This document shows positions 49,456-60,112 of a stretch of DNA of 64,000 bases, piece after piece. Location of the stretch: contig JAIOYW010000001.1 in assembly GCA_021740915.1 (NCBI GenBank), positions 62,001-126,000 on the forward strand, given 5' to 3'. The notes beneath the pieces were generated by a model that made no database searches, was not told the DNA's origin, and saw only the letters and a list, made by a program, of their open reading frames with translations. A program made the position numbers and the translations under genes. Each line of letters begins with the position of its first letter. The first letter of the stretch is position 1. The stretch comes from Ignavibacteriales bacterium. GTDB lineage: Bacteria > Bacteroidota > Ignavibacteria > Ignavibacteriales > Melioribacteraceae.

Positions 49456-52305
49456 TTATTTAACCAAAATCATCTTGATTGTCCTTGAATGTCCCTCGAA
49501 ATATCTTGCATTAAGGAAATAGACTCCCGAAGGTAATCCCTCAGCTTCAAAACGAAATTCATAATGACCGGCAGGAAAGGTATCATTGGCAAGTGTGCTG
49601 ACCTTTTCTCCTGTAACGTTATAAACTTCAATAAGTAATTTAATCTCAATCGGAACATGTATGCTGAATTTTGTCTCAGGGTTAAAAGGATTAGGATAGT
49701 TTTGAGATATATAAAATTCCTGTGGATTCTCATTATCCGAAGATATGTCTGAAGTCCCACCAGTAAGATAATCGAGTATTTTGTTCATCAAACTGATTCG
49801 GGAATTTTCATTATAAACAGTTTCGAATGGAAATGCGAAGTGGACCAGAGCTCCCGGAGCAGTTCCGCCCGGAAATATGCCCTTATAGGTTACTCCCGCA
49901 CCATTGCTGCTTGTAGGCGCATTTTTGTAAAGCAATGCTATACTGCTCCCACCTGAAGTTGTAATTGCATCAGGCCAGAGAACATTAAATGACCCATGGG
50001 TTCCGTTATCAAAATTAAAATCGGGAATACCAGCAAATAATTCACCGTTGACAGGTGTGACTGTATAATATGTTGATGATGTATTTCCGGGAGCATCAGC
50101 AACGTATTTTGCTTTGAGATAATTATGATAAAAGTCTTTGTCAGCTTGTGTCGGATGTCCGGATTTTCCTTCGAGATCCCATCCGATTTCAGCGCCAGAT
50201 ACAAAAAGTTTACCCCCTCCTTTAAGGAAACTGGTCACCATTGCCTGTTCAGTCGGGTTGAAAGTATCATCTGCTGTACTTTCGTCTCCCAGAATCCAGA
50301 TAACGATCTCATAATCATTCAGATCCAACCTTGCTCCATAAACTGATTCATTCATGGTATAATCAAATGAGTAACCATTAAGTGCCAAAGGATTGGCATA
50401 TTCAAGAATGTAGTTAAATCTCGTGTTAGTTCCGCGGTCAAACCCATTAACTACAAGCACTTTCTGGGGGTTTGAGGAGGGTACTCCAGCAAAAAGTTTA
50501 TTTGAAAGCGATGAATAGCCTCTTTCATTAAATGCACGGGCTTTGAAATAATAAACCTGCCCCGCAGTTAAACCAGTGATAGTAATAATATTTTCAGACG
50601 AGGAAACTGAATCTGTGAACTGTACTCCGTCAGTGCTTATCAGAACAGTGTATCCGGTGGCATAAGCTGTTGTATCACACCATACTGTGAGTGTGGAGTC
50701 GTCAACACCTTTTACGCCAACCATATAAGGCGATTGCGGTGCAGGTGACGATATTAGCACAGGGTCAGTAATCACTGTATTTGAGGCGAAAGACTCATTC
50801 CAGTATCTGTTAATAGTTGTTGCAAAATAACGATATTGACCATTAAAATTATAAGCATCCTGAAACTGATCATCAACACTATGAGCTGTAGCAGTCAGGA
50901 TCAGATTAATTAATTGATCATTATTAGTGTCAAGAATATCATCTTCTGACCTGTAAAGTGCATACCAATATTTTTGATTGGCTGAAACAGGAGGAGTAAC
51001 ATAAATTCTGTAGTGTAATGAATCCATTTTTGTCAGAGAAATAGTTGGTGGTTCCTGAATTTCTGCCTGAACAATCGGTCTTACTTTAGTCTTTCTATTA
51101 AAGAAAAGTGATTTCGCTTCATTCCAGTAATTGTGTGTAACCCATGAACCATAACTGAAAAACTGATATCCGTCCGTCCAGGAAATCTGTCGGGTTGCTT
51201 CAACAATCTCTTTATGCTTGTACCATACATTGTTTTCATGAAGTATATAGGAGCCAGGTCCGATTGAATATAATCTGCCAGCATCAATGCCAGGTTGAAT
51301 ATATGGTTTCCAATCACTATTGAGATTATTTACGAATCCCGAACCAGTCGTCCAATGATAATGCATTGGAGTGAGCTGGTCAAGATAACCTTCAGAAAAC
51401 CACTTTGCAGCATCTTGAAAAACGACATAGTAGCCATTCCATCCATTTACACCGCCTTCACGGTGTTTACCGAGAGCCGCAGCAGATAATCTAACCCAGG
51501 GTTTTACTGCCTGGATGGAATCATGAAGCATTTTAACAAATTTATTGACTCCATCACGACGCCAGTCATCCCAATTAGAAAAACCTGCCGGCACACCTCC
51601 TGACGCCGGATGGTCAACATCGAAAATGTATCTTTTGTAGCCGGAAGGGCTCTTACCCATCTCTTCTTTTTGGTTAATGAATTGCCCGTCAAAGAGGATA
51701 TCCTGTTGAGGTGCAGGTATTGGTTTTGCCATGTCATCTTCATCATATTCATTCCAGCGGATAAAATCCAGATGAATCCCATCGACATCATAGTTATTGA
51801 CAATTTCCATCGCCACTTGTACAGTATATTCTCTGACTGCATCCAGACCAGGAGAGGCGCATCTGTATGAAGTCATATATTGCCCGTCCTCATTTGTACA
51901 AACCCATTCCGGGTGATTGGCTGCCGGAGTGCCAGGTACTGTGGAAGAAATATGGAAGCAATTAACCCATGCATGCAATTCCATTCCTCTTTTGTGTGCC
52001 TCTTGAATGGCATAAGCGAGAGGATCATAACCAGGATAAGATCCACCTGCATAAGAACCCCATGGCTCGAACGAGGAAGCATAATAAGCCGTACCACTTT
52101 GTCGGGCCTGCCATAATACTGCATTCATATTCGCTGCCTGATGGTCATCGAGTATTTGTTTAACTTTTGCTTTGTTTTGCTCGACCGTCCAATTTGGATT
52201 TATATGTTCCCAGGTAATAACCCAGGTTGACCTGAATTCTTCATTCTGGGCGATCAGTTTGAGTGACGATATTGATAGAGCGAGTATTAAAAAAATATAA
52301 CGCAA
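49456..52305 (-). CDS. Secreted glycosidase-like (GHL10/DUF187) multidomain protein with T9SS sorting domain
   Basis: The 949-residue protein has a signal peptide, then a GHL10 (DUF187) glycosyl-hydrolase-like barrel at about 22-400 (EFRSTWVITWEHINPN, MNAVLWQARQSG, YDVDGIHLDFIRW). A fibronectin-III-like domain follows at about 535-620 (GLTAGQVYYFKARAFNERGY). The next domain, about 630-850, is Rossmann-like (KVLVVNGFDRGTNTRFNYIL, EIVIWILGDES, GGGKLFVSGAEIGWDL) and resembles a GATase/ThuA fold without an obvious catalytic triad. The last 85 residues are a T9SS type A sorting domain (SQNYPNPFNPETKF). The GHL10 family is linked to peptidoglycan or other glycan cleavage, but the substrate here is unknown. 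It diverges from the trp leader. Confidence 0.88.
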   Translation of the reverse strand: MRYIFLILALSISSLKLIAQNEEFRSTWVITWEHINPNWTVEQNKAKVKQILDDHQAANMNAVLWQARQSGTAYYASSFEPWGSYAGGSYPGYDPLAYAIQEAHKRGMELHAWVNCFHISSTVPGTPAANHPEWVCTNEDGQYMTSYRCASPGLDAVREYTVQVAMEIVNNYDVDGIHLDFIRWNEYDEDDMAKPIPAPQQDILFDGQFINQKEEMGKSPSGYKRYIFDVDHPASGGVPAGFSNWDDWRRDGVNKFVKMLHDSIQAVKPWVRLSAAALGKHREGGVNGWNGYYVVFQDAAKWFSEGYLDQLTPMHYHWTTGSGFVNNLNSDWKPYIQPGIDAGRLYSIGPGSYILHENNVWYKHKEIVEATRQISWTDGYQFFSYGSWVTHNYWNEAKSLFFNRKTKVRPIVQAEIQEPPTISLTKMDSLHYRIYVTPPVSANQKYWYALYRSEDDILDTNNDQLINLILTATAHSVDDQFQDAYNFNGQYRYFATTINRYWNESFASNTVITDPVLISSPAPQSPYMVGVKGVDDSTLTVWCDTTAYATGYTVLISTDGVQFTDSVSSSENIITITGLTAGQVYYFKARAFNERGYSSLSNKLFAGVPSSNPQKVLVVNGFDRGTNTRFNYILEYANPLALNGYSFDYTMNESVYGARLDLNDYEIVIWILGDESTADDTFNPTEQAMVTSFLKGGGKLFVSGAEIGWDLEGKSGHPTQADKDFYHNYLKAKYVADAPGNTSSTYYTVTPVNGELFAGIPDFNFDNGTHGSFNVLWPDAITTSGGSSIALLYKNAPTSSNGAGVTYKGIFPGGTAPGALVHFAFPFETVYNENSRISLMNKILDYLTGGTSDISSDNENPQEFYISQNYPNPFNPETKFSIHVPIEIKLLIEVYNVTGEKVSTLANDTFPAGHYEFRFEAEGLPSGVYFLNARYFEGHSRTIKMILVK

Positions 52306-52465: not shown

Positions 52466-52497
52466 TTGACATTGTATTCAAATATTCTTTAGGTTTG
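52466..52497 (+). promoter_or_regulatory. trp: Candidate Bacteroidota-type promoter of the trp operon
   Basis: TTG at 52466-52468 (within TTGACA) lies 21 bases before TAGGTTTG at 52490-52497, which matches the -33 TTG and -7 TAnnTTTG elements of the main sigma factor of Bacteroidota. The start point would fall near 52502, at or just before the leader ATG, so the leader might be leaderless. The rest of the 52306-52465 stretch shows nothing I can mark. Confidence 0.4.
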
Positions 52498-52501
52498 TGC
52501 C

Positions 52502-52579
52502 ATGAATTTGATTACAACTAAAATATCGGCAATTTTTCAGAACTGGTGGTGGCAGGGAGGACATACTGCGGCCATTTAG
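52502..52579 (+). CDS. trpL: trp operon leader peptide
   Basis: A 25-codon frame from ATG 52502 to TAG 52577-52579 contains three consecutive Trp codons (residues 15-17, in QNWWWQGG). It ends 78 bases before trpE and is followed by a strong terminator hairpin. This is the arrangement of transcription attenuation: when Trp-tRNA is scarce, the ribosome stalls at the Trp codons and the downstream RNA folds differently. One alternative pairing is visible, TTAGTGAT (52576-52583) with ATCACTAA (52620-52627), which would disturb the upper part of the terminator stem. The Trp codons also pair partly with 52568-52574, giving a candidate pause hairpin. Confidence 0.85.
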   Translation: MNLITTKISAIFQNWWWQGGHTAAI

Positions 52580-52602
52580 TGATAATTAAATATTTAAAGT
52601 TT

Positions 52603-52640
52603 AAAACCCTTCTTGGTGGATCACTAAGAAGGGTTTTTTC
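52603..52640 (+). terminator. trp attenuator terminator hairpin
   Basis: AACCCTTCTT (52605-52614) pairs perfectly with AAGAAGGGTT (52626-52635). Inside, GTG (52616-52618) pairs with CAC (52622-52624) around a three-base loop, with a G-U pair between. A T run (52634-52639) follows. It lies 24 bases after the leader-peptide stop and 18 bases before trpE, exactly where an attenuator belongs. Confidence 0.9.
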
Positions 52641-52657: not shown

Positions 52658-54136
52658 ATGAGAAAAGAAGAATTTTTAGAATATTCAAAAATGTTTAACC
52701 TGATTCCAGTTTATAGAAGGTTGACTGCCGATTTTCTTACTCCGGTAAGTGCTTTCCTGAAATTACGGCAGAAAGGCACATTTTCCATTTTACTCGAATC
52801 AGTTGAAAGTATTGGAAGGCTTGCAAGATATTCAATTATTGCTTCGCGACCTCAAAAAATAATAAAATGTCAGGACCAGGAAACCTATATTATTGAAAGT
52901 GGTCATGTGGAACGAACGGAAACGGATATGTTTCAGACATTGAAAAAAATCCTCACCGGGATAAAAACTCCAAAAATAGAAGGTTTTCCTGATTTTGCGG
53001 GCGGGATGATTGGCTACATTGGATTTGAAACTGTTGCGGATATCGAGCCTGACGCCGGATTCCGGTTTAAACAATCAGTAGATTTTCCACTTGCTGTAAT
53101 TGGTCAATTTAATGATCTCGTTGTATTTGATCACTATAAACATCAGACCCTGATTATTAGTATGGCAAAAATCGAAGCTGATGCAGAATTAACTGACATA
53201 TACGACAATTCAGTAAAGAGAATTAAAGATATTGTATCTCAATTGAGTGCAGAGATCAGGTTCCAGTCAGATTTTCAAATATCAGGTGATCCTCCGGGAT
53301 TAGAGAATTCTGAGGATTTCAAATTGCTCGTTAAAAAAGCAAAAAAGCACATCTTCGAGGGAGACGTCTTCCAACTTGTTCTCTCAAAGAGATTCTCACG
53401 TGAATACACCGGGGATGAGTTCAGCGTCTATCGTGCGCTTAGGATAATCAATCCTTCTCCGTATATGTATTATATGGAATTTGGGGATGGAAGAAGTGTT
53501 ATTGGCACATCGCCTGAAGATCTTGTTAAGGTAAAGGGAAATACAGTCCAGATTTTGCCAATTGCAGGAACAAGAAGAAGGGGAACCGACGATGATGAAG
53601 ACAAAAAAATGGAAGAGCAATTACTGAGTGATCCCAAAGAAATCGCAGAACACATGATGCTTGTTGATCTTGCACGAAATGACCTTGGAAGAATCTGCAA
53701 ATATGGTAGCGTTAAAGTTGAAGAATTAATGAGAGTGCACAGATTTACTTATTTAATGCACCTTGTTTCAAGGGTATCCGGTAATTTGGATACTAATTCT
53801 GATTCGATTGATGCACTTAAATCTGCGTTTCCTGCCGGGACTGTAACAGGTGCCCCGAAAATTAAAGCAATTGATCTGATTTCAAAATATGAAGATGAAC
53901 CTCGATCTGTATATGCTGGCGCAGTCGGATATATTGATTTTAATGGAAACCTCGATATGTGTATTGCTATCAGGACATTATTTTGCAGTGGGAACAGGAT
54001 TATCTGGCAGGCTGGTGCCGGTATCGTTGCCGATAGCAATCCGGATAATGAACTGAAAGAGATATTAAATAAATCTGAGAGTATGGTGAGGGCGATTAAA
54101 TATGCGGAGATTATTGATGAAAATATTGATTATTGA
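52658..54136 (+). CDS. trpE: Anthranilate synthase component I
   Basis: The 492-residue protein makes anthranilate from chorismate and ammonia, the first committed step to tryptophan. FSILLESVES near residue 43 is the tryptophan feedback site (LLES at 45-48). The chorismate-binding core has DVFQLVLSKRF, the IGTSPEDLVKV segment, LPIAGTRRRG, HMMLVDLARNDLGR and the terminal QAGAGIVADSNP. The ATG at 52658 has AAGGGA seven bases upstream. It is read from the attenuated leader and overlaps trpG by 20 bases. So the pathway is regulated both by attenuation and by product inhibition. Confidence 0.97.
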   Translation: MRKEEFLEYSKMFNLIPVYRRLTADFLTPVSAFLKLRQKGTFSILLESVESIGRLARYSIIASRPQKIIKCQDQETYIIESGHVERTETDMFQTLKKILTGIKTPKIEGFPDFAGGMIGYIGFETVADIEPDAGFRFKQSVDFPLAVIGQFNDLVVFDHYKHQTLIISMAKIEADAELTDIYDNSVKRIKDIVSQLSAEIRFQSDFQISGDPPGLENSEDFKLLVKKAKKHIFEGDVFQLVLSKRFSREYTGDEFSVYRALRIINPSPYMYYMEFGDGRSVIGTSPEDLVKVKGNTVQILPIAGTRRRGTDDDEDKKMEEQLLSDPKEIAEHMMLVDLARNDLGRICKYGSVKVEELMRVHRFTYLMHLVSRVSGNLDTNSDSIDALKSAFPAGTVTGAPKIKAIDLISKYEDEPRSVYAGAVGYIDFNGNLDMCIAIRTLFCSGNRIIWQAGAGIVADSNPDNELKEILNKSESMVRAIKYAEIIDENIDY

Positions 54137-54704
54137 TAACTACGATTCCTTCACATACAATCTTGTTCAGATTCTTGGATCGCTTGCAGCAGAAGTCCTG
54201 GTTTTTAGGAACGATTCAATTTCCTTGAAGGAATTATCTGAACTGGAACCTGATGGAATTGTAATTTCTCCCGGGCCTGGCAGACCTTCTGACACGGGGA
54301 TTTGCAGAGATGCCATAATTCAGTTTGGTGATAGGATGCCCATTTTGGGCGTATGTCTCGGTCATCAGCTAATAGGCGAAATATTCGGAGGAGAAGTTGT
54401 GTATGCTCCCAGTTTGGTGCATGGGAAAACTTCAGAAATATCACATATTGGACGAGGAATATTTGCTGACATCCCACAAAAATTCAAAGCCGCAAGATAT
54501 CATTCTCTTATGGTAACCAAAACCTCCTTCCCGATAGAATTATTAATTACCGCGACCACAGAGGATGGAGTGATAATGGGTTTAAAACACCGCTCTCATC
54601 ATATTTATGGAATTCAGTTCCATCCGGAATCAATAATGACTGAGTTTGGAGATACTTTGCTAAAAAACTGGACAGATTTATGCTCACTGAATACATTAAA
54701 ATAG
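54117..54704 (+). CDS. trpG: Anthranilate synthase glutamine amidotransferase
   Basis: The 195-residue class I amidotransferase supplies ammonia to TrpE. MKILIIDNYDSFTYNL starts the protein, GVCLGHQ holds the catalytic Cys, and IQFHPES the His-Glu pair. The ATG at 54117 has GGAG about seven bases upstream and overlaps trpE by 20 bases; an ATG at 54102 is less likely. Because no separate pabA is visible it may also serve para-aminobenzoate synthesis, as in many bacteria. Confidence 0.96.
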   Translation: MKILIIDNYDSFTYNLVQILGSLAAEVLVFRNDSISLKELSELEPDGIVISPGPGRPSDTGICRDAIIQFGDRMPILGVCLGHQLIGEIFGGEVVYAPSLVHGKTSEISHIGRGIFADIPQKFKAARYHSLMVTKTSFPIELLITATTEDGVIMGLKHRSHHIYGIQFHPESIMTEFGDTLLKNWTDLCSLNTLK

Positions 54705-55696
54705 TTCTTAATAAAAAAAATCTTTCATTAGAAGAATCAAAAGAAGCCATGCGAATTCTGATGTCAGGAAATGCAGATAATATCTCGATCAGTGCTTTTC
54801 TGACAGCCTTAAAGATGAAAGGCGAACAACCCGAAGAATTAGCCGGATTTATAAGTGTTATAAGGGAAAATTCAATGAGATTGAATAGGGAATTTCCGGA
54901 GGCGATTGATGTTTGCGGGACAGGGGGCGATGATTCCGGTTCATTCAATATTTCAACTGCAACTTCATTTGTTGTGGCTGGTGCCGGAGTTCGGGTTGCC
55001 AAGCACGGGAACCGATCAATCTCCAGTAAAACAGGCAGTGCTGATGTCCTTACAGAATTGGGAGTGAATATTCATATGGATATTGAAACTTCTCAGAAGG
55101 CTCTCGAAGAAATCGGCATAACATTTCTTTTTGCACCTGATTATCATCCGGCGATGAGGCATGTTGCTGAAGTAAGAAGAACCCTTGCTGTAAAAACAGT
55201 CTTTAATCTTTTAGGACCATTGGCAAATCCTGCTGGAGTGAAAAAACAAATCATTGGAACGTATAGCAATGAATCAATGAAAACCATGTTTAATAGTCTG
55301 AGTTTTCTTGACAATGAGAGAGTGTCTGTAATTTGCAGCGAGGGACGATACGATGAAATAACGCTTACAGGTAAAACAAAAATAATGGAATATGATGCGA
55401 ATCAATCAAGGGAATACACCCTCCATCCGAAGGATTTTGGATTTGATAAAATCGACCCTTCAAAAATAAAAGGCGGCGATTCAAAAACAAATGCAAAAAT
55501 CATACTTGATATTCTGGAAGGAAATATTAAGAATGAGACTTATCAGGTAGTTATTGCAAATGCAGCACTTGCATTATATACGGAAAATGGGAAATCAGAT
55601 TTGAAATATTATGTTAGAGCGGCTGAAGAATCAATCCGAAGTGGTCAGGCTCTCCAAAAACTTAATGAACTGATAGAATTAGGTATATCAAAATGA
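54680..55696 (+). CDS. trpD: Anthranilate phosphoribosyltransferase
   Basis: The 338-residue enzyme joins anthranilate to phosphoribosyl pyrophosphate. CGTGGDDSGSFNIST and KHGNRSISSKTGSADVLTELG bind the substrates; FLFAPDYHPAMRHVAEVRRTL and FNLLGPLANP are also typical. It overlaps trpG by 25 bases and trpC by four (ATGA), so translation is coupled through the operon. Confidence 0.97.
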   Translation: MLTEYIKIVLNKKNLSLEESKEAMRILMSGNADNISISAFLTALKMKGEQPEELAGFISVIRENSMRLNREFPEAIDVCGTGGDDSGSFNISTATSFVVAGAGVRVAKHGNRSISSKTGSADVLTELGVNIHMDIETSQKALEEIGITFLFAPDYHPAMRHVAEVRRTLAVKTVFNLLGPLANPAGVKKQIIGTYSNESMKTMFNSLSFLDNERVSVICSEGRYDEITLTGKTKIMEYDANQSREYTLHPKDFGFDKIDPSKIKGGDSKTNAKIILDILEGNIKNETYQVVIANAALALYTENGKSDLKYYVRAAEESIRSGQALQKLNELIELGISK

Positions 55697-56478
55697 GTTT
55701 CATATCAGATATCCTTGAAGTAAAGCAGAATGAGATAAATCGTATCCAAAAAAGATTTACGAAAAATGATTTCGAATCGTTTGGATATTTTAATAAAGTT
55801 ACCAAAGATATCAGAAGCGTTCTAAACCCTGGATCATTTGGAATTATTGCTGAGATTAAAAAAGCCAGCCCCTCGAAAGGAATACTAATAAAAGATTTTG
55901 ATCACCGGGCTATATATAACAACTATAGGACCAATGGTGCAGATGCGGTTTCTGTTTTGACCGAAACACATTTTTTCCATGGTGATATTCAATACCTTGA
56001 GGATCTGGCACAAATTTCGGATATCCCTCTACTCAGGAAGGATTTTATAATTGATGAGCTGCAGATTTTCCAAACAAAAGCAATTGGAGCTGACATCATT
56101 CTGCTGATATGCGAAATACTTTCAAAACAACAGATTACTGATTTTACTGATATTGCAATGGGAATAGGTTTGAAGGTTCTTCTCGAATTTCATTCAGAAA
56201 AAGAAATGGAAAAAATTGATTTTGACAGAAACAAACTTATTGGAATAAATAGCAGGGATCTTTTTACTTTCGAGGAAGACCTCGGAAAAAGTATAAAAAT
56301 ATCGGAAAAATTACCTGAAAGTATCTTTCGTATAGCTGAGAGTGGATTGAGAGAAAAAAAGGATTTTATCAGAGTAAAACAAGCTGGATTTGGCGCTTTG
56401 CTTGCCGGCGAAATATTCATGAGATCACACAATATTGGGGATAAACTATCAGAAGTGAGGTCCTGGTGTGATTCTTAA
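55693..56478 (+). CDS. trpC: Indole-3-glycerol phosphate synthase
   Basis: The 261-residue TIM-barrel enzyme closes the indole ring. Motifs are IIAEIKKASPSKGIL with the catalytic Lys, LLRKDFIIDELQIFQ, LIGINSRDLFTF and ESGLREKKDF. It is a single-function protein rather than a TrpC-TrpF fusion, as trpF is the next separate gene. Overlap with trpD is four bases and with trpF eleven. Confidence 0.97.
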   Translation: MSFISDILEVKQNEINRIQKRFTKNDFESFGYFNKVTKDIRSVLNPGSFGIIAEIKKASPSKGILIKDFDHRAIYNNYRTNGADAVSVLTETHFFHGDIQYLEDLAQISDIPLLRKDFIIDELQIFQTKAIGADIILLICEILSKQQITDFTDIAMGIGLKVLLEFHSEKEMEKIDFDRNKLIGINSRDLFTFEEDLGKSIKISEKLPESIFRIAESGLREKKDFIRVKQAGFGALLAGEIFMRSHNIGDKLSEVRSWCDS

Positions 56479-57118
56479 AGTGAAAGTTTGTGGAATCACA
56501 AATATTGAAGACGCATTATTAGTTGAAAGCTGCGGGGCTTCAGGTGTGGGTTTTATATTTTATCAGGAAAGCAAAAGGTTCGTGACACCGGAGAAAGTGA
56601 AAGAAATTGATGAAAAATTATCGGATCATATACTTCGGATTGGAGTTTTTGTAAATACTAATGCCGATATAATAAATGAAATTTCGGATTTTTGCAATCT
56701 TAATATTGTTCAATTACATGGTGACGAACCAGATTCATGCTTAAAAGAAATTAATTTACCAATAATAAGAGCTTACCGGGTAGAGAGTAGTAGTTTCAAG
56801 TCGGTTGTCATTAATACTAGTTTTGTCAGCCTTTTTGATTCATTCTCAGATGGTCAATTCGGCGGCACAGGCAAGCAGTTTAGGTGGGACATAATACCGG
56901 AAGTTATTATTAATAAATCAATTTTGTCTGGGGGACTGAATATTGATAACCTTGAGCAACTGTTCAGAGATATCAGACCTGCGGCCATCGATATCTCTTC
57001 TTCGGTGGAAAAAACACCAGGAAAAAAGGACGAAAAAAAAGTAAAAGAATTTTTTAATAAATATCAAATACTAAGGAATAACTATGCTGATTTTGATGGA
57101 ATTAAATTCGACAAGTGA
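56468..57118 (+). CDS. trpF: Phosphoribosylanthranilate isomerase
   Basis: The 216-residue TIM-barrel enzyme converts phosphoribosylanthranilate to the ribulose form. KVCGITNIEDALL near the N-terminus holds the catalytic Cys, and VGVFVN-like (RIGVFVNTN), QLHGDE and the SGGLNIDN segment are family signatures. The start is GTG at 56468, with GAGG about seven bases upstream, overlapping trpC by 11 bases. The reading frame continues 35 bases past the start of the next gene. Confidence 0.95.
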   Translation: MILKVKVCGITNIEDALLVESCGASGVGFIFYQESKRFVTPEKVKEIDEKLSDHILRIGVFVNTNADIINEISDFCNLNIVQLHGDEPDSCLKEINLPIIRAYRVESSSFKSVVINTSFVSLFDSFSDGQFGGTGKQFRWDIIPEVIINKSILSGGLNIDNLEQLFRDIRPAAIDISSSVEKTPGKKDEKKVKEFFNKYQILRNNYADFDGIKFDK

Positions 57119-58100
57119 GGACGTAAAAAGGGTGAAAACAGAAGTAGAGCCATACGGATGCAAAGCGCATAAAATCGAGGGGACTCAAAATATCGCTCTC
57201 GGTATAACTGGAAACACTACAAATTTAAAAGAGGATAATTTAAGAAATCTTAAAGGGGTTACCGATGTTATAAGGGTCTCCAGAAAGTATAAACTGGTTA
57301 GCAGAATGATGAAGCCGGATGATACAAAAATCGAGATAGGCAATGATGTTATCGGCGGTAATGAAATTACTATAATTGCTGGACCATGTTCAGTTGAAAG
57401 CAGAGATCAGATATTTCAAATTGCCGAAACTCTCGCTAATATTGGGATAAAATTCATGAGAGCTGGTGCTTATAAACCCCGGTCAAGTCCTTACGCTTTT
57501 CAGGGAATGAAAGAAGAAGGATTATTACTCCTTGACGAAGTTAAAAGAGAATTTGGACTTAAAATAGTCACAGAATTATTGAATCCGGCTCATATCGATA
57601 GCGTAAAAGAAGTCGCCGATATTATACAGATTGGTGCACGAAACATGCAGAATTTTTCTTTGCTTGAAGAGGTTGGCCGAACAGGAATGCCGGTGCTTTT
57701 AAAAAGGGGACTATCTGCAACTATAGAAGACCTATTACTTAGTGCTGAGTATATTGTCAGCCAGAATAATTATAATGTAATATTATGTGAAAGGGGCATA
57801 AGAACTTTTGAAATATTTACGAGAAACACACTTGATCTGAATGCTGTCCCGGTCTTAAAATCAGAGACCCATCTTCCAGTTTTTGTTGACCCTTCACATG
57901 GTATTGGTATCTGGGATAAAGTGCCTGCAATGGCGATGGCATCTATTGCCGCAGGTGCAGATGGACTGATGGTGGAAGTGCATCCTTTCCCGCAGGCTGC
58001 TCTTTCGGATGGATATCAGAGCCTTACGCCGAAAAATTTCCATGCAATGCTTGAAAAACTTAAAACTCTTGCCGAAATAATGGAAAGGAGAATCAATTAA
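57084..58100 (+). CDS. aroF: 3-deoxy-7-phosphoheptulonate (DAHP) synthase
   Basis: The 338-residue type I-beta DAHP synthase joins phosphoenolpyruvate and erythrose 4-phosphate, the first step of the shikimate pathway. An N-terminal ferredoxin-like regulatory domain (residues 1-75) precedes the barrel, which has IAGPCSVES, FMRAGAYKPRSSPYAFQG, QIGARNMQNF and FVDPSHGIG with the metal site. It overlaps trpF by 35 bases and abuts trpB, so it is fully inside the trp operon. Its placement lets the same attenuator control entry into the shikimate pathway as well as the tryptophan branch. The N-terminal domain is the usual place for allosteric control. Confidence 0.95.
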   Translation: MLILMELNSTSEDVKRVKTEVEPYGCKAHKIEGTQNIALGITGNTTNLKEDNLRNLKGVTDVIRVSRKYKLVSRMMKPDDTKIEIGNDVIGGNEITIIAGPCSVESRDQIFQIAETLANIGIKFMRAGAYKPRSSPYAFQGMKEEGLLLLDEVKREFGLKIVTELLNPAHIDSVKEVADIIQIGARNMQNFSLLEEVGRTGMPVLLKRGLSATIEDLLLSAEYIVSQNNYNVILCERGIRTFEIFTRNTLDLNAVPVLKSETHLPVFVDPSHGIGIWDKVPAMAMASIAAGADGLMVEVHPFPQAALSDGYQSLTPKNFHAMLEKLKTLAEIMERRIN

Positions 58101-59306
58101 ATGGTTGATTTTAAAAGTTATGCTTTCCCGGATAGTAGAGGAAAATTTGGAATGTATGGCGGGAAATATGTACCAGAAATTTTAATCCCGGCATTGGATG
58201 AGCTGGAAGAGAATTATTCTGCATTATGCCGTGATGAGTCATTTCTTGCCGAGTTAAATAATTTACAGCAGGAATATAATGGGAGACCTACTCCGCTTAC
58301 TTTTGCAAAAAGACTAACTGAACATTTTAATGGAGCCAAGATATTTCTGAAACGTGAAGATCTTTGTCATACGGGTGCCCACAAAATTAACAATACACTC
58401 GGACAGATATTGTTAGCAAAGAAGATGGGCAAAAAACGAATTATAGCTGAAACCGGAGCCGGTCAGCACGGCGTTGCAACTGCTACCGTTTGTGCTAAAT
58501 ATGGATTAGAATGTATTATTTACATGGGTGCTGTTGATGTTGAACGGCAGAAATTGAACGTATTTAAAATGAAAATGCTCGGTGCAGAAGTGCGCTCTGT
58601 AAATTCTGGAACTGCAACGCTTAAAGATGCAACAAATGAAGCGATCAGAGATTGGGTTACTAATGTCGGGGATACATATTATATTCTTGGATCGGTCGTC
58701 GGGCCTCATCCATATCCAATGATAGTGCGTGATTTTCAAAAAATCATAGGTGAGGAGACCAAGGAGCAAATAATAAAGGCAGAAGGGAAATTGCCAGATA
58801 AAATAATCGCCTGTGTTGGAGGAGGTTCTAACTCTATTGGGATTTTCTATCCATTCCTGAAGAATTCCGAAGTACAACTAATAGGTGTTGAGGCTGCCGG
58901 GCTGGGCATTGAGACTAATAAGCATTGCGCAACTCTGACGAAGGGCAGAGCAGGGATTTTTCAGGGTATGAAAACATACCTCCTTCAGGATAAGGAAGGT
59001 CAGGTGAACGAAGTCCATTCAATTTCCGCGGGACTTGATTATCCGGGAGTTGGTCCCGAGCATTCTTTCCTGCATGATATTAAAAGAGTTAAGTATTTAA
59101 GTGCCACAGATGATGAGGCATTATCAGCACTTTTCTTGCTTTCAAAACTTGAGGGAATTATCCCGGCACTTGAAACGGCACATGCTCTCGCTGCTCTTGA
59201 AAAGATTATCATAGGGTCACATCCGGATCAGATTATTGTTGTTAATTGCAGTGGAAGAGGGGATAAGGATATGTTCAAAATATCAGAAGCCGGAGGGCTC
59301 GAGTGA
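58101..59306 (+). CDS. trpB: Tryptophan synthase beta chain
   Basis: The 401-residue PLP enzyme condenses indole with serine. HTGAHKINN contains the PLP lysine (near residue 95), [11 protein letters not shown] binds serine and indole, and GGGSNSIG grips the cofactor phosphate. It is the standard TrpB1 type rather than TrpB2. The ATG follows the aroF stop directly and the end overlaps trpA by four bases (GTGA), matching the fixed stoichiometry of the alpha2-beta2 complex. Confidence 0.98.
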
Positions 59307-60112
59307 TAAATCTAAAGAAATATATATCAGAACTGAATACGAAAAGTGAATTGGCGCTTTCAATCTTCCTGACCGCCGGATATCCAGATAAAAAAGATTT
59401 TATAAAAATTGCTGAACTGGTATATGAAAATGGCGCTGATTTGATGGAAATAGGTTTTCCTTTCAGTGATCCGCTTGCAGATGGAACTGTGATACAACGA
59501 TCTTCACTTGAAGCATTAAGATCCGGTTTCATTCTAAATGATCTGTTCAGATATGGTGAGCAATTAAAACTTAAGTATAATAAACCTTTAATTGCAATGG
59601 GATATGCCAACAGTATTGTGAACTATGGAAATGCTGATTTTTTTCGAGATGCCTTAAATGCAGGATTTGATGCGCTAATTGTTCCTGATATACCTTACGA
59701 TGAGTATGAAGATTTTTATGCGGATAATATCCCGAATTTGCCGGTGATCAATCTTGTGACACCAACATCTACCGATAAAAGGATCAAAGAAATTGATACT
59801 GTCACAGATTCTTTTATCTATTATGTATCTGTGAAAGGTACAACTGGTTTTAGACGAAACGTAAACCAACAGACCCTTGATGAAATGAAGCGTGTCAGGA
59901 GCATGATATCAAAAAATAAAATGCTCACCGGGTTCGGAATATCTTCTATAGAAGATATTAGCACTGTCTCCCCATATTGTGATGGGATTATCATCGGTAG
60001 TGCAGTAATTAAAAAAATAATGGAAAATCAGGATGAATATGAATCACTCTCTTATTATATCCGCGAGTTAAAATGCGCTACTACTAAAAGACATCAACAA
60101 AATATTGATTAA
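59303..60112 (+). CDS. trpA: Tryptophan synthase alpha chain
   Basis: The 269-residue TIM barrel splits indole-glycerol phosphate and channels indole to Trp[20 protein letters not shown] holds the catalytic Glu and Asp, and [14 protein letters not shown] and GFGISS bind the phosphate. The start is GTG at 59303, with GGAGG ten bases upstream, overlapping trpB by four bases. It closes the trp operon; no terminator hairpin is obvious in the 59 bases before the next gene. Confidence 0.96.

Follow-up and report, generated by a model that had tools for sequence, protein, structure and literature searches.

A tryptophan attenuator of the Ignavibacteriales whose antiterminator appears to take the loop and 3' strand of the terminator

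The trp leader and its operon

The window, a stretch of 64,000 nucleotides, carries an operon of eight Trp and aromatic genes with trpE first. The gene assignments rest on NCBIfam models, two of them just short of or below the cut-off: TrpE scores 510.2 bits (just below the 517.7 of TIGR00564), and TrpF scores 199.6 (below the 215 of its model). The best matches of TrpE in named genomes are 51-55% identical, and bear the labels Melioribacter, Melioribacteraceae, Ignavibacteriales, Ignavibacteria, or Bacteroidota, which places the window on the Ignavibacteria side of Bacteroidota. A large divergent gene (49456-52305, − strand) encodes a probable secreted protein, whose C-terminal segment, ISQNYPNPFNPETKF..., we take to resemble a type IX secretion sorting domain. 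The elements of the leader and the genes that follow are these:

52466-52471, + strand: predicted −33 promoter element TTGACA (spacer of 19 between TTGAC and the −7 box)
52490-52497, + strand: predicted −7 promoter box TAGGTTTG, a match to the consensus TAnnTTTG, placed as in 38 of 64 leaders
52502-52579, + strand: leader peptide ORF of 25 codons, MNLITTKISAIFQNWWWQGGHTAAI, with three consecutive Trp codons (52544-52552) and tandem stops
52506-52522, + strand: candidate protector strand (region 1), whose partners in the minimum-energy fold lie within 52575-52591
52575-52583, + strand: TTTAGTGAT, putative antiterminator arm (region 2); it overlaps the stop codon and covaries in relatives
52603-52618, + strand: terminator 5' strand (region 3), from the fold and the consensus helix
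52620-52628, + strand: partner of the arm, made of loop bases and the upper terminator 3' strand (region 4)
52622-52639, + strand: terminator 3' strand with T run, from the fold and the consensus helix (95.5% of cells paired; 63 distinct rows)
52658-54136, + strand: trpE, which opens the operon (top NCBIfam model, TIGR00564 trpE_most; E = 5.5e-153)
54102-60112, + strand: trpG, trpD, trpC, trpF, DAHP synthase, trpB, and trpA (NCBIfam)

The leader ORF closes with TAG TGA TAA, all three in frame. The terminator forms 16 bp (52603-52618 with 52622-52637; loop GAU; T run 52634-52639) at −21.9 kcal/mol, whereas 200 shuffles average −7.4 (z = −5.98) and none of them is as stable; the same is true of the fold of 52503-52640 as a whole (z = −5.67; 0 of 200). 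Region 2 is complementary to the loop and upper 3' strand of this terminator (52575-52583 with 52620-52628, TTTAGTGAT with ATCACTAAG; shuffle p = 0.005), and starts 25 nt past the first base of the last Trp codon. Below, this pairing is written 2:4, and a pairing of region 2 with the terminator 5' strand 2:3. An initial annotation of the DNA, made from its letters alone, had pointed out the 25-codon leader with Trp-Trp-Trp, the near-perfect terminator hairpin with its T run, and trpE 18 bases after 52640, all of which recur here as described; its alternative pairing, 52576-52583 with 52620-52627, is likewise present, and extends by one pair.

Conservation of the leader and its promoter

The search for TrpE covered 97 genomes from the window's family and order, a sample in which the window's genus has a single member. 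Each genome whose TrpE orthologue (E = 4.4e-138 or better) is present with its 5' end contributed one leader, giving 64 with the window included. Two C-terminal TrpE fragments were left out, as were the weaker matches, which were treated as paralogues (E above 1e-54), and the remaining 33 of the 97 genomes are counted neither way. The 64 genomes represent 46 genera; the shuffle p-values treat related genomes as independent.

In all 64 leaders, an ORF that begins with ATG, runs for 20-37 codons, and includes two to five Trp codons starts 150-287 nt upstream of trpE, and a hairpin with a T run (−13.0 to −25.3 kcal/mol) stands between that ORF and trpE. The Trp codons are adjacent in 58 leaders. 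Four others (L006, L011, L014, and L017) read W-A-W-F-W, and L123 and L124 have just two, which stand apart and might be there by chance. Relatives devoid of Trp codons and terminator, which the initial annotation had named as the evidence that would count against attenuation, did not turn up among the 64, with that reserve on L123 and L124. Judged by this comparison, trp attenuation is conserved through the order.

Clustered-Trp ORFs were also sought more widely. Within 400 nt upstream of TrpE, named genomes across bacteria have one at 27 of 80 loci, ten of which (L031-L039 and L058) come from the Ignavibacteria side. A further 84 loci, chosen from outside the order to spread over families, comprise 33 from other orders of the class and 51 from the rest of the phylum. 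Among the former, 12 have a plausible clustered-Trp ORF, and 21 have none or a doubtful one that lacks a terminator; among the latter, 40 have one (some doubtful) and 11 have none. Trp leaders, as recognized in sequence, are common in Bacteroidota but not universal, and are absent from several families of the window's class. At L162, L176-L184, L186-L190, and L192-L195, all of them loci of other orders in the class, trpE is preceded by neither a Trp leader nor a terminator, which implies some other mode of trp regulation in these genomes.

When 198 genomes of the phylum were scanned with a covariance model of the trp leader, matches appeared in 19 from the order (18 at E = 7.7e-7 or better, G067 at 5.4e-4) and, weakly, in 17 from outside it (best E 1.8e-5 to 8.8e-4). 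Thirteen of the model's many weaker matches in the 97 relatives were fetched: four are leaders of other genes, and nine are either ambiguous or similar in appearance to terminators of other genes.

The predicted promoter stands close to the leader ORF. An exact TAnnTTTG lies 2-15 nt upstream of the leader ATG in 38 of the 64 leaders (shuffled, 1.9%), and a box with at most one mismatch in 53 (shuffled, 23%). In 45 of these 53, the −7 box is preceded by TTGAC at a distance of 17-19 nt, a count given without a shuffle control for TTGAC. Where several ATG codons were possible, the promoter match aided the choice of start codon, which slightly favours the promoter count; for L111 and L138, whose starts were later changed by hand, the promoter distances are those to an earlier ATG.

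The same TAnnTTTG consensus is located at −12 to −5 in Flavobacterium psychrophilum (PMC9723704). If the box has that position here, the ATG of the window, 4 nt after its −7 box, puts the predicted transcription start at the A of the ATG. With the leader ATG so close behind the box, the trp message of the window is probably near-leaderless. This would be unusual for the phylum, since leaderless messages are reported at 5.5% in F. psychrophilum (PMC9723704) and 5' UTRs below 10 nt at about 3.7% in B. thetaiotaomicron (PMC7366714). The mRNAs of this phylum are described as naturally without Shine-Dalgarno sequences (PMC6847099), and a conserved sensor ORF apparently at the extreme 5' end of a message, in such a phylum, predicts efficient leaderless loading.

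Which strand of the terminator the arm takes

The segment between the last Trp codon and the terminator was searched for its best ungapped helix with either of two targets, and the result was compared with 200 dinucleotide shuffles of that segment. The targets are: for the 3' strand, the loop plus the first nine bases of that strand; and for the 5' strand, its last nine bases plus the loop. The 3'-strand pairing (2:4) reaches p < 0.05 in 47 of the 64 leaders, the 5'-strand pairing (2:3) in eight; the window has p = 0.706 for the 5' strand against 0.005 for the 3' strand.

The pairing can also be followed in a MAFFT alignment of all 64 leaders, built without reference to it. Eight 2:4 pairs hold in 80.4% of cells, and in 22.6-50.0% when slid by one to three columns, a contrast sharpened by the fact that the structure was drawn from the same sequences. 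Cells with both sides changed number 40, against 12.9 in shuffles, and the covariation score exceeds that of all 500 shuffles; four pairs carry such changes, a number that 297 of the 500 shuffles reach. The outermost pair (32-127) is kept in just 14 of 63 rows, and the 3' columns of 2:4 also covary with the terminator 5' strand (95.5% of cells paired). RNAalifold returns only the terminator from the alignment, as expected of two mutually exclusive folds.

The position of the arm is held as well. In 58 of the 64 leaders, spanning 41 of the 46 genera and including weak helices (the 4-bp helices of L006, L011, L014, and L017), the best arm begins 21-28 nt past the first base of the last Trp codon; 100 shuffled sets average 10.5 such leaders and never exceed 17, and six leaders fall outside the range. 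Counted from the stop codon, the starts of the 47 significant arms range from −16 to +13, with the exception of L123, whose arm starts at −26 and only 4 nt past the first base of the last Trp codon.

Fifty-five of the 58 leaders, those in which the displaced terminator segment is an ungapped helix (three were dropped), were scored further. Their arms lie inside the ORF in 16, across its stop in 28, and after the stop in 11, and occupy all three reading frames. That an arm may stand in any frame, and anywhere relative to the stop, points to a constraint on the RNA, with a distance that follows the Trp codons and not the peptide. A ribosome covers at most 12 nt 3' of the stop codon (PMC4833913). 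By the same measure, such an arm would be free when a ribosome stalls on the Trp codons, and a ribosome standing on the stop codon would cover just the first bases of an arm that lies 11-14 nt past it.

The 2:4 helix includes at least one loop base in 50 of the 55 leaders, and is stronger than the part of the terminator that it displaces in 54 (median difference 5.9 kcal/mol), a comparison that favours 2:4 in that the arm was picked as the best helix. For the window the margin is small (−12.7 for 2:4 against −11.5 kcal/mol for the displaced segment, loop cost excluded), and the intermediate 52570-52629 prefers to fold as the top of the terminator, so capture there would need help from kinetics. 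The initial annotation had thought the 8-bp pairing short, and that the switch might rely on another fold. The relatives speak otherwise, with that very pairing conserved and covarying, even if the window's own margin is narrow. The pattern suggests that the Ignavibacteriales trp antiterminator takes the terminator loop and 3' strand, not the textbook 5' strand.

The same test was applied to known and related leaders. E. coli trp gives p = 0.045 for the 5' strand and 0.97 for the 3' strand; its best 5'-strand helix, CGGGC with GCCCG, is the established antiterminator pairing. The E. coli and Ignavibacteriales elements share a leader with tandem Trp codons, an intrinsic terminator before trpE, and a competing pairing past the Trp codons. 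They differ in three respects: the distance of the arm from the first base of the last Trp codon (17 nt in E. coli against 21-28); the strand paired (the 5' strand in E. coli, the loop and 3' strand in Ignavibacteriales); and the leader ATG, which in Ignavibacteriales adjoins the promoter box and leaves no space for a ribosome binding site.

The His leaders of the order offer a nearer control. A His-rich leader precedes 27 of the 28 hisG loci found in 38 relatives (L301-L328), nearly always with a terminator. Twenty-five were scored (L304, L322, and L327 lack the leader or the terminator): p < 0.05 is reached with the 5' strand in 16, and with the 3' strand in three. The arm starts 16-24 nt past the last His codon in 15 of the 16 significant cases. 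The His and trp leaders of one order are alike in having a leader peptide with a run of the cognate residue and a terminator, and opposite in the strand favoured.

Trp leaders from outside the order fall on both sides. Of the 84 loci described above, 47 entered the test and 42 could be scored: 3' strand only, 8; 5' strand only, 17; both, 3; and neither, 14. Family f35 contributes three of its four loci to the 3'-strand group, so this geometry is not confined to Ignavibacteriales.

The trp operons of Corynebacterium and Streptomyces have predicted classical attenuators with double or triple UGG codons and terminator and antiterminator hairpins (PMC1262725). These organisms belong to another phylum, and the conserved complementary triple gGCC-rGCy-GGCC described for them is not found in the Ignavibacteriales alignment. 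For F. psychrophilum, which is of the same phylum and has TAnnTTTG promoters, “strong clues” are reported for leader-peptide attenuation upstream of amino-acid biosynthesis operons, in passages that name no trp leader and no geometry (PMC9723704). Among the matches listed from the open-access literature, none described a trp attenuator of Ignavibacteria, and none an antiterminator that takes the terminator 3' strand; an earlier description of either may exist.

The strongest competitor, still an unlikely one, is a textbook attenuator in which region 2 captures the terminator 5' strand and 2:4 is a by-product of the resemblance of region 2 to region 3. Precedent is on its side, with 5'-strand-only pairing in E. 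coli trp, in the His leaders of the order, and in 17 of the 42 trp leaders elsewhere in the phylum. So are the four W-A-W-F-W leaders, which can pair ACTGAG with CTCAGT of the 5' strand (p 0.075-0.214); their 3'-strand helix is a non-significant 4 bp, and they look more like the 5'-strand type. Moreover, CAGGGAGG with CCTTCTTG (−14.1) is energetically the best helix of the window with any part of the terminator. However, CAGGGAGG, which is cited without a shuffle test of its own, begins 3 nt past the first base of the last Trp codon, where a stalled ribosome would cover it, and for this position the helix was set aside as the antiterminator. The upper 5'-strand helix is significant in just the eight leaders, and far from it in the window. 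Finally, the loop bases in the 2:4 helix would not be produced by resemblance to region 3.

A model of the switch, and other leaders

The preferred reading, with 2:4 as the antiterminator, makes the element probably a ribosome-mediated trp attenuator built on competition for the terminator 3' strand. From the ORF with its Trp codons, the terminator, and a 2:4 complementarity held at a fixed distance, a cycle of stalling, occlusion, and strand capture can be proposed, and with it a response to tryptophan. Polymerase would start at the leader ATG or a few bases before it, and a ribosome would load on the near-leaderless message. When Trp is plentiful, the ribosome would reach the stop codon and cover region 2 (52575-52583); regions 3 and 4 would then form the terminator, and transcription would end. 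When charged tRNA-Trp is scarce, the ribosome would stall on the Trp codons and leave region 2, just beyond its footprint, free to pair with 52620-52628, in the loop and upper 3' strand. Closure of the terminator would then be blocked, and trpE to trpA would be read. Without translation, region 1 may hold region 2, for termination by default.

The term “classical”, used in the initial annotation, suits the logic of this scheme (a ribosome on Trp codons; terminator versus antiterminator) but not its apparent geometry, in which the loop and 3' strand are paired and not the 5' strand. The textbook antiterminator wins by capturing the terminator 5' strand before the 3' strand is synthesized. An arm that enters a forming hairpin through its loop would place other demands on timing and strand displacement.

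Region 1 is a probable protector in part of the order. In the window, the minimum-energy fold of 52502-52600 has z = −2.37 (five of 200 shuffles are as stable), and region 1 taken as a single ungapped helix has p = 0.71. Among the 64 leaders, a helix of region 1 with region 2 reaches p < 0.05 in 23, the longest being 19 bp (L118), and 22 of these 23 helices share at least one base with the arm. As a general switch, the protector helix was rejected as too patchy.

These helices and the window fold might be taken to mean that the protector and the terminator make up the whole switch, with no antiterminator and a stalled ribosome that acts by pausing or Rho, for example. This is very improbable: the 2:4 pairing occurs in more of the leaders, stands at a better position, and covaries, and a helix that overlaps the arm in 22 of 23 cases fits a role in hiding it. 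Least credible of all is control by a different regulator (a TRAP-like protein, a T-box, or a Trp repressor) with the leader ORF incidental, given that each of the 64 leaders has both an ORF with Trp codons and a terminator, although an additional regulator would be compatible with the present evidence. The window's genome has no match to the TrpR family and none to TRAP (PF02081), which a control search did find in Bacillus subtilis. No Rfam family matches the window at gathering score; lax thresholds yield 22 chance-like, sub-threshold matches with no T-box and no Trp leader family among them, the sole amino-acid leader being His_leader at 18.2 bits against 49.

Attenuation by competition for the 3' strand, our favoured account of the window, may be one form of something broader. 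We think it reasonably likely, though with less assurance, that two attenuator geometries are interchangeable, one taking the 5' strand and the other the 3' strand through the loop. They would share a ribosome ruler, with the arm mostly 12-28 nt past the last regulatory codon, and the strand captured would have changed repeatedly under an unchanged sensor: 3' in the trp leaders of Ignavibacteriales, 5' in their His leaders, and 3' for trp in some other Bacteroidota families. The model gives a testable second way to build the attenuator switch, and the Trp and His leaders within one order make a natural side-by-side comparison.

Several other loci in the relatives carry amino-acid-rich leaders. 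L289 (genome G063) has a mixed Phe/Tyr/Trp leader, STYYFNFTWSFYGF, with the same design of arm and terminator, upstream of a DAHP synthase gene. At L288 (G004), a genome in which no TrpE orthologue was found, a Trp leader and terminator precede trpB (TIGR00263). The leader ORF MSQKFYSISICCCSSCIFVSLRSGIL and a terminator lie upstream of a cysteine synthase gene (cysK, TIGR01139) at L293 (G088). As a candidate operon, ilvB has a nearby terminator at none of 23 loci, and a branched-chain-rich ORF, by a loose pattern, at five of 23. The window's genome, rated 100% complete, has no hisG match, and no match above cut-off to acetolactate synthase or the metY family; it may be an auxotroph for His and the branched-chain amino acids that has kept trp.

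Leader ORFs with runs of Met or of Met and Cys (CCCCMMM, MMMCMM, and MHMMM, for example) precede O-acetylhomoserine sulfhydrylase (metY-type) genes at L299 (G076), L329, L335, L341, and L345; a simple pattern finds them at four of 22 metY loci, with L299 in addition. They are candidate methionine/cysteine attenuators. L345 has two such ORFs in tandem. Finally, a conserved ORF of 44-58 codons (MTxEELxxxxxAIEExxxxxxxWxKDYxYSxxTNE) stands before the trp leader, about 200-440 nt upstream of trpE, at L007, L012, L016, L021, L022, L024, L112, and L114.
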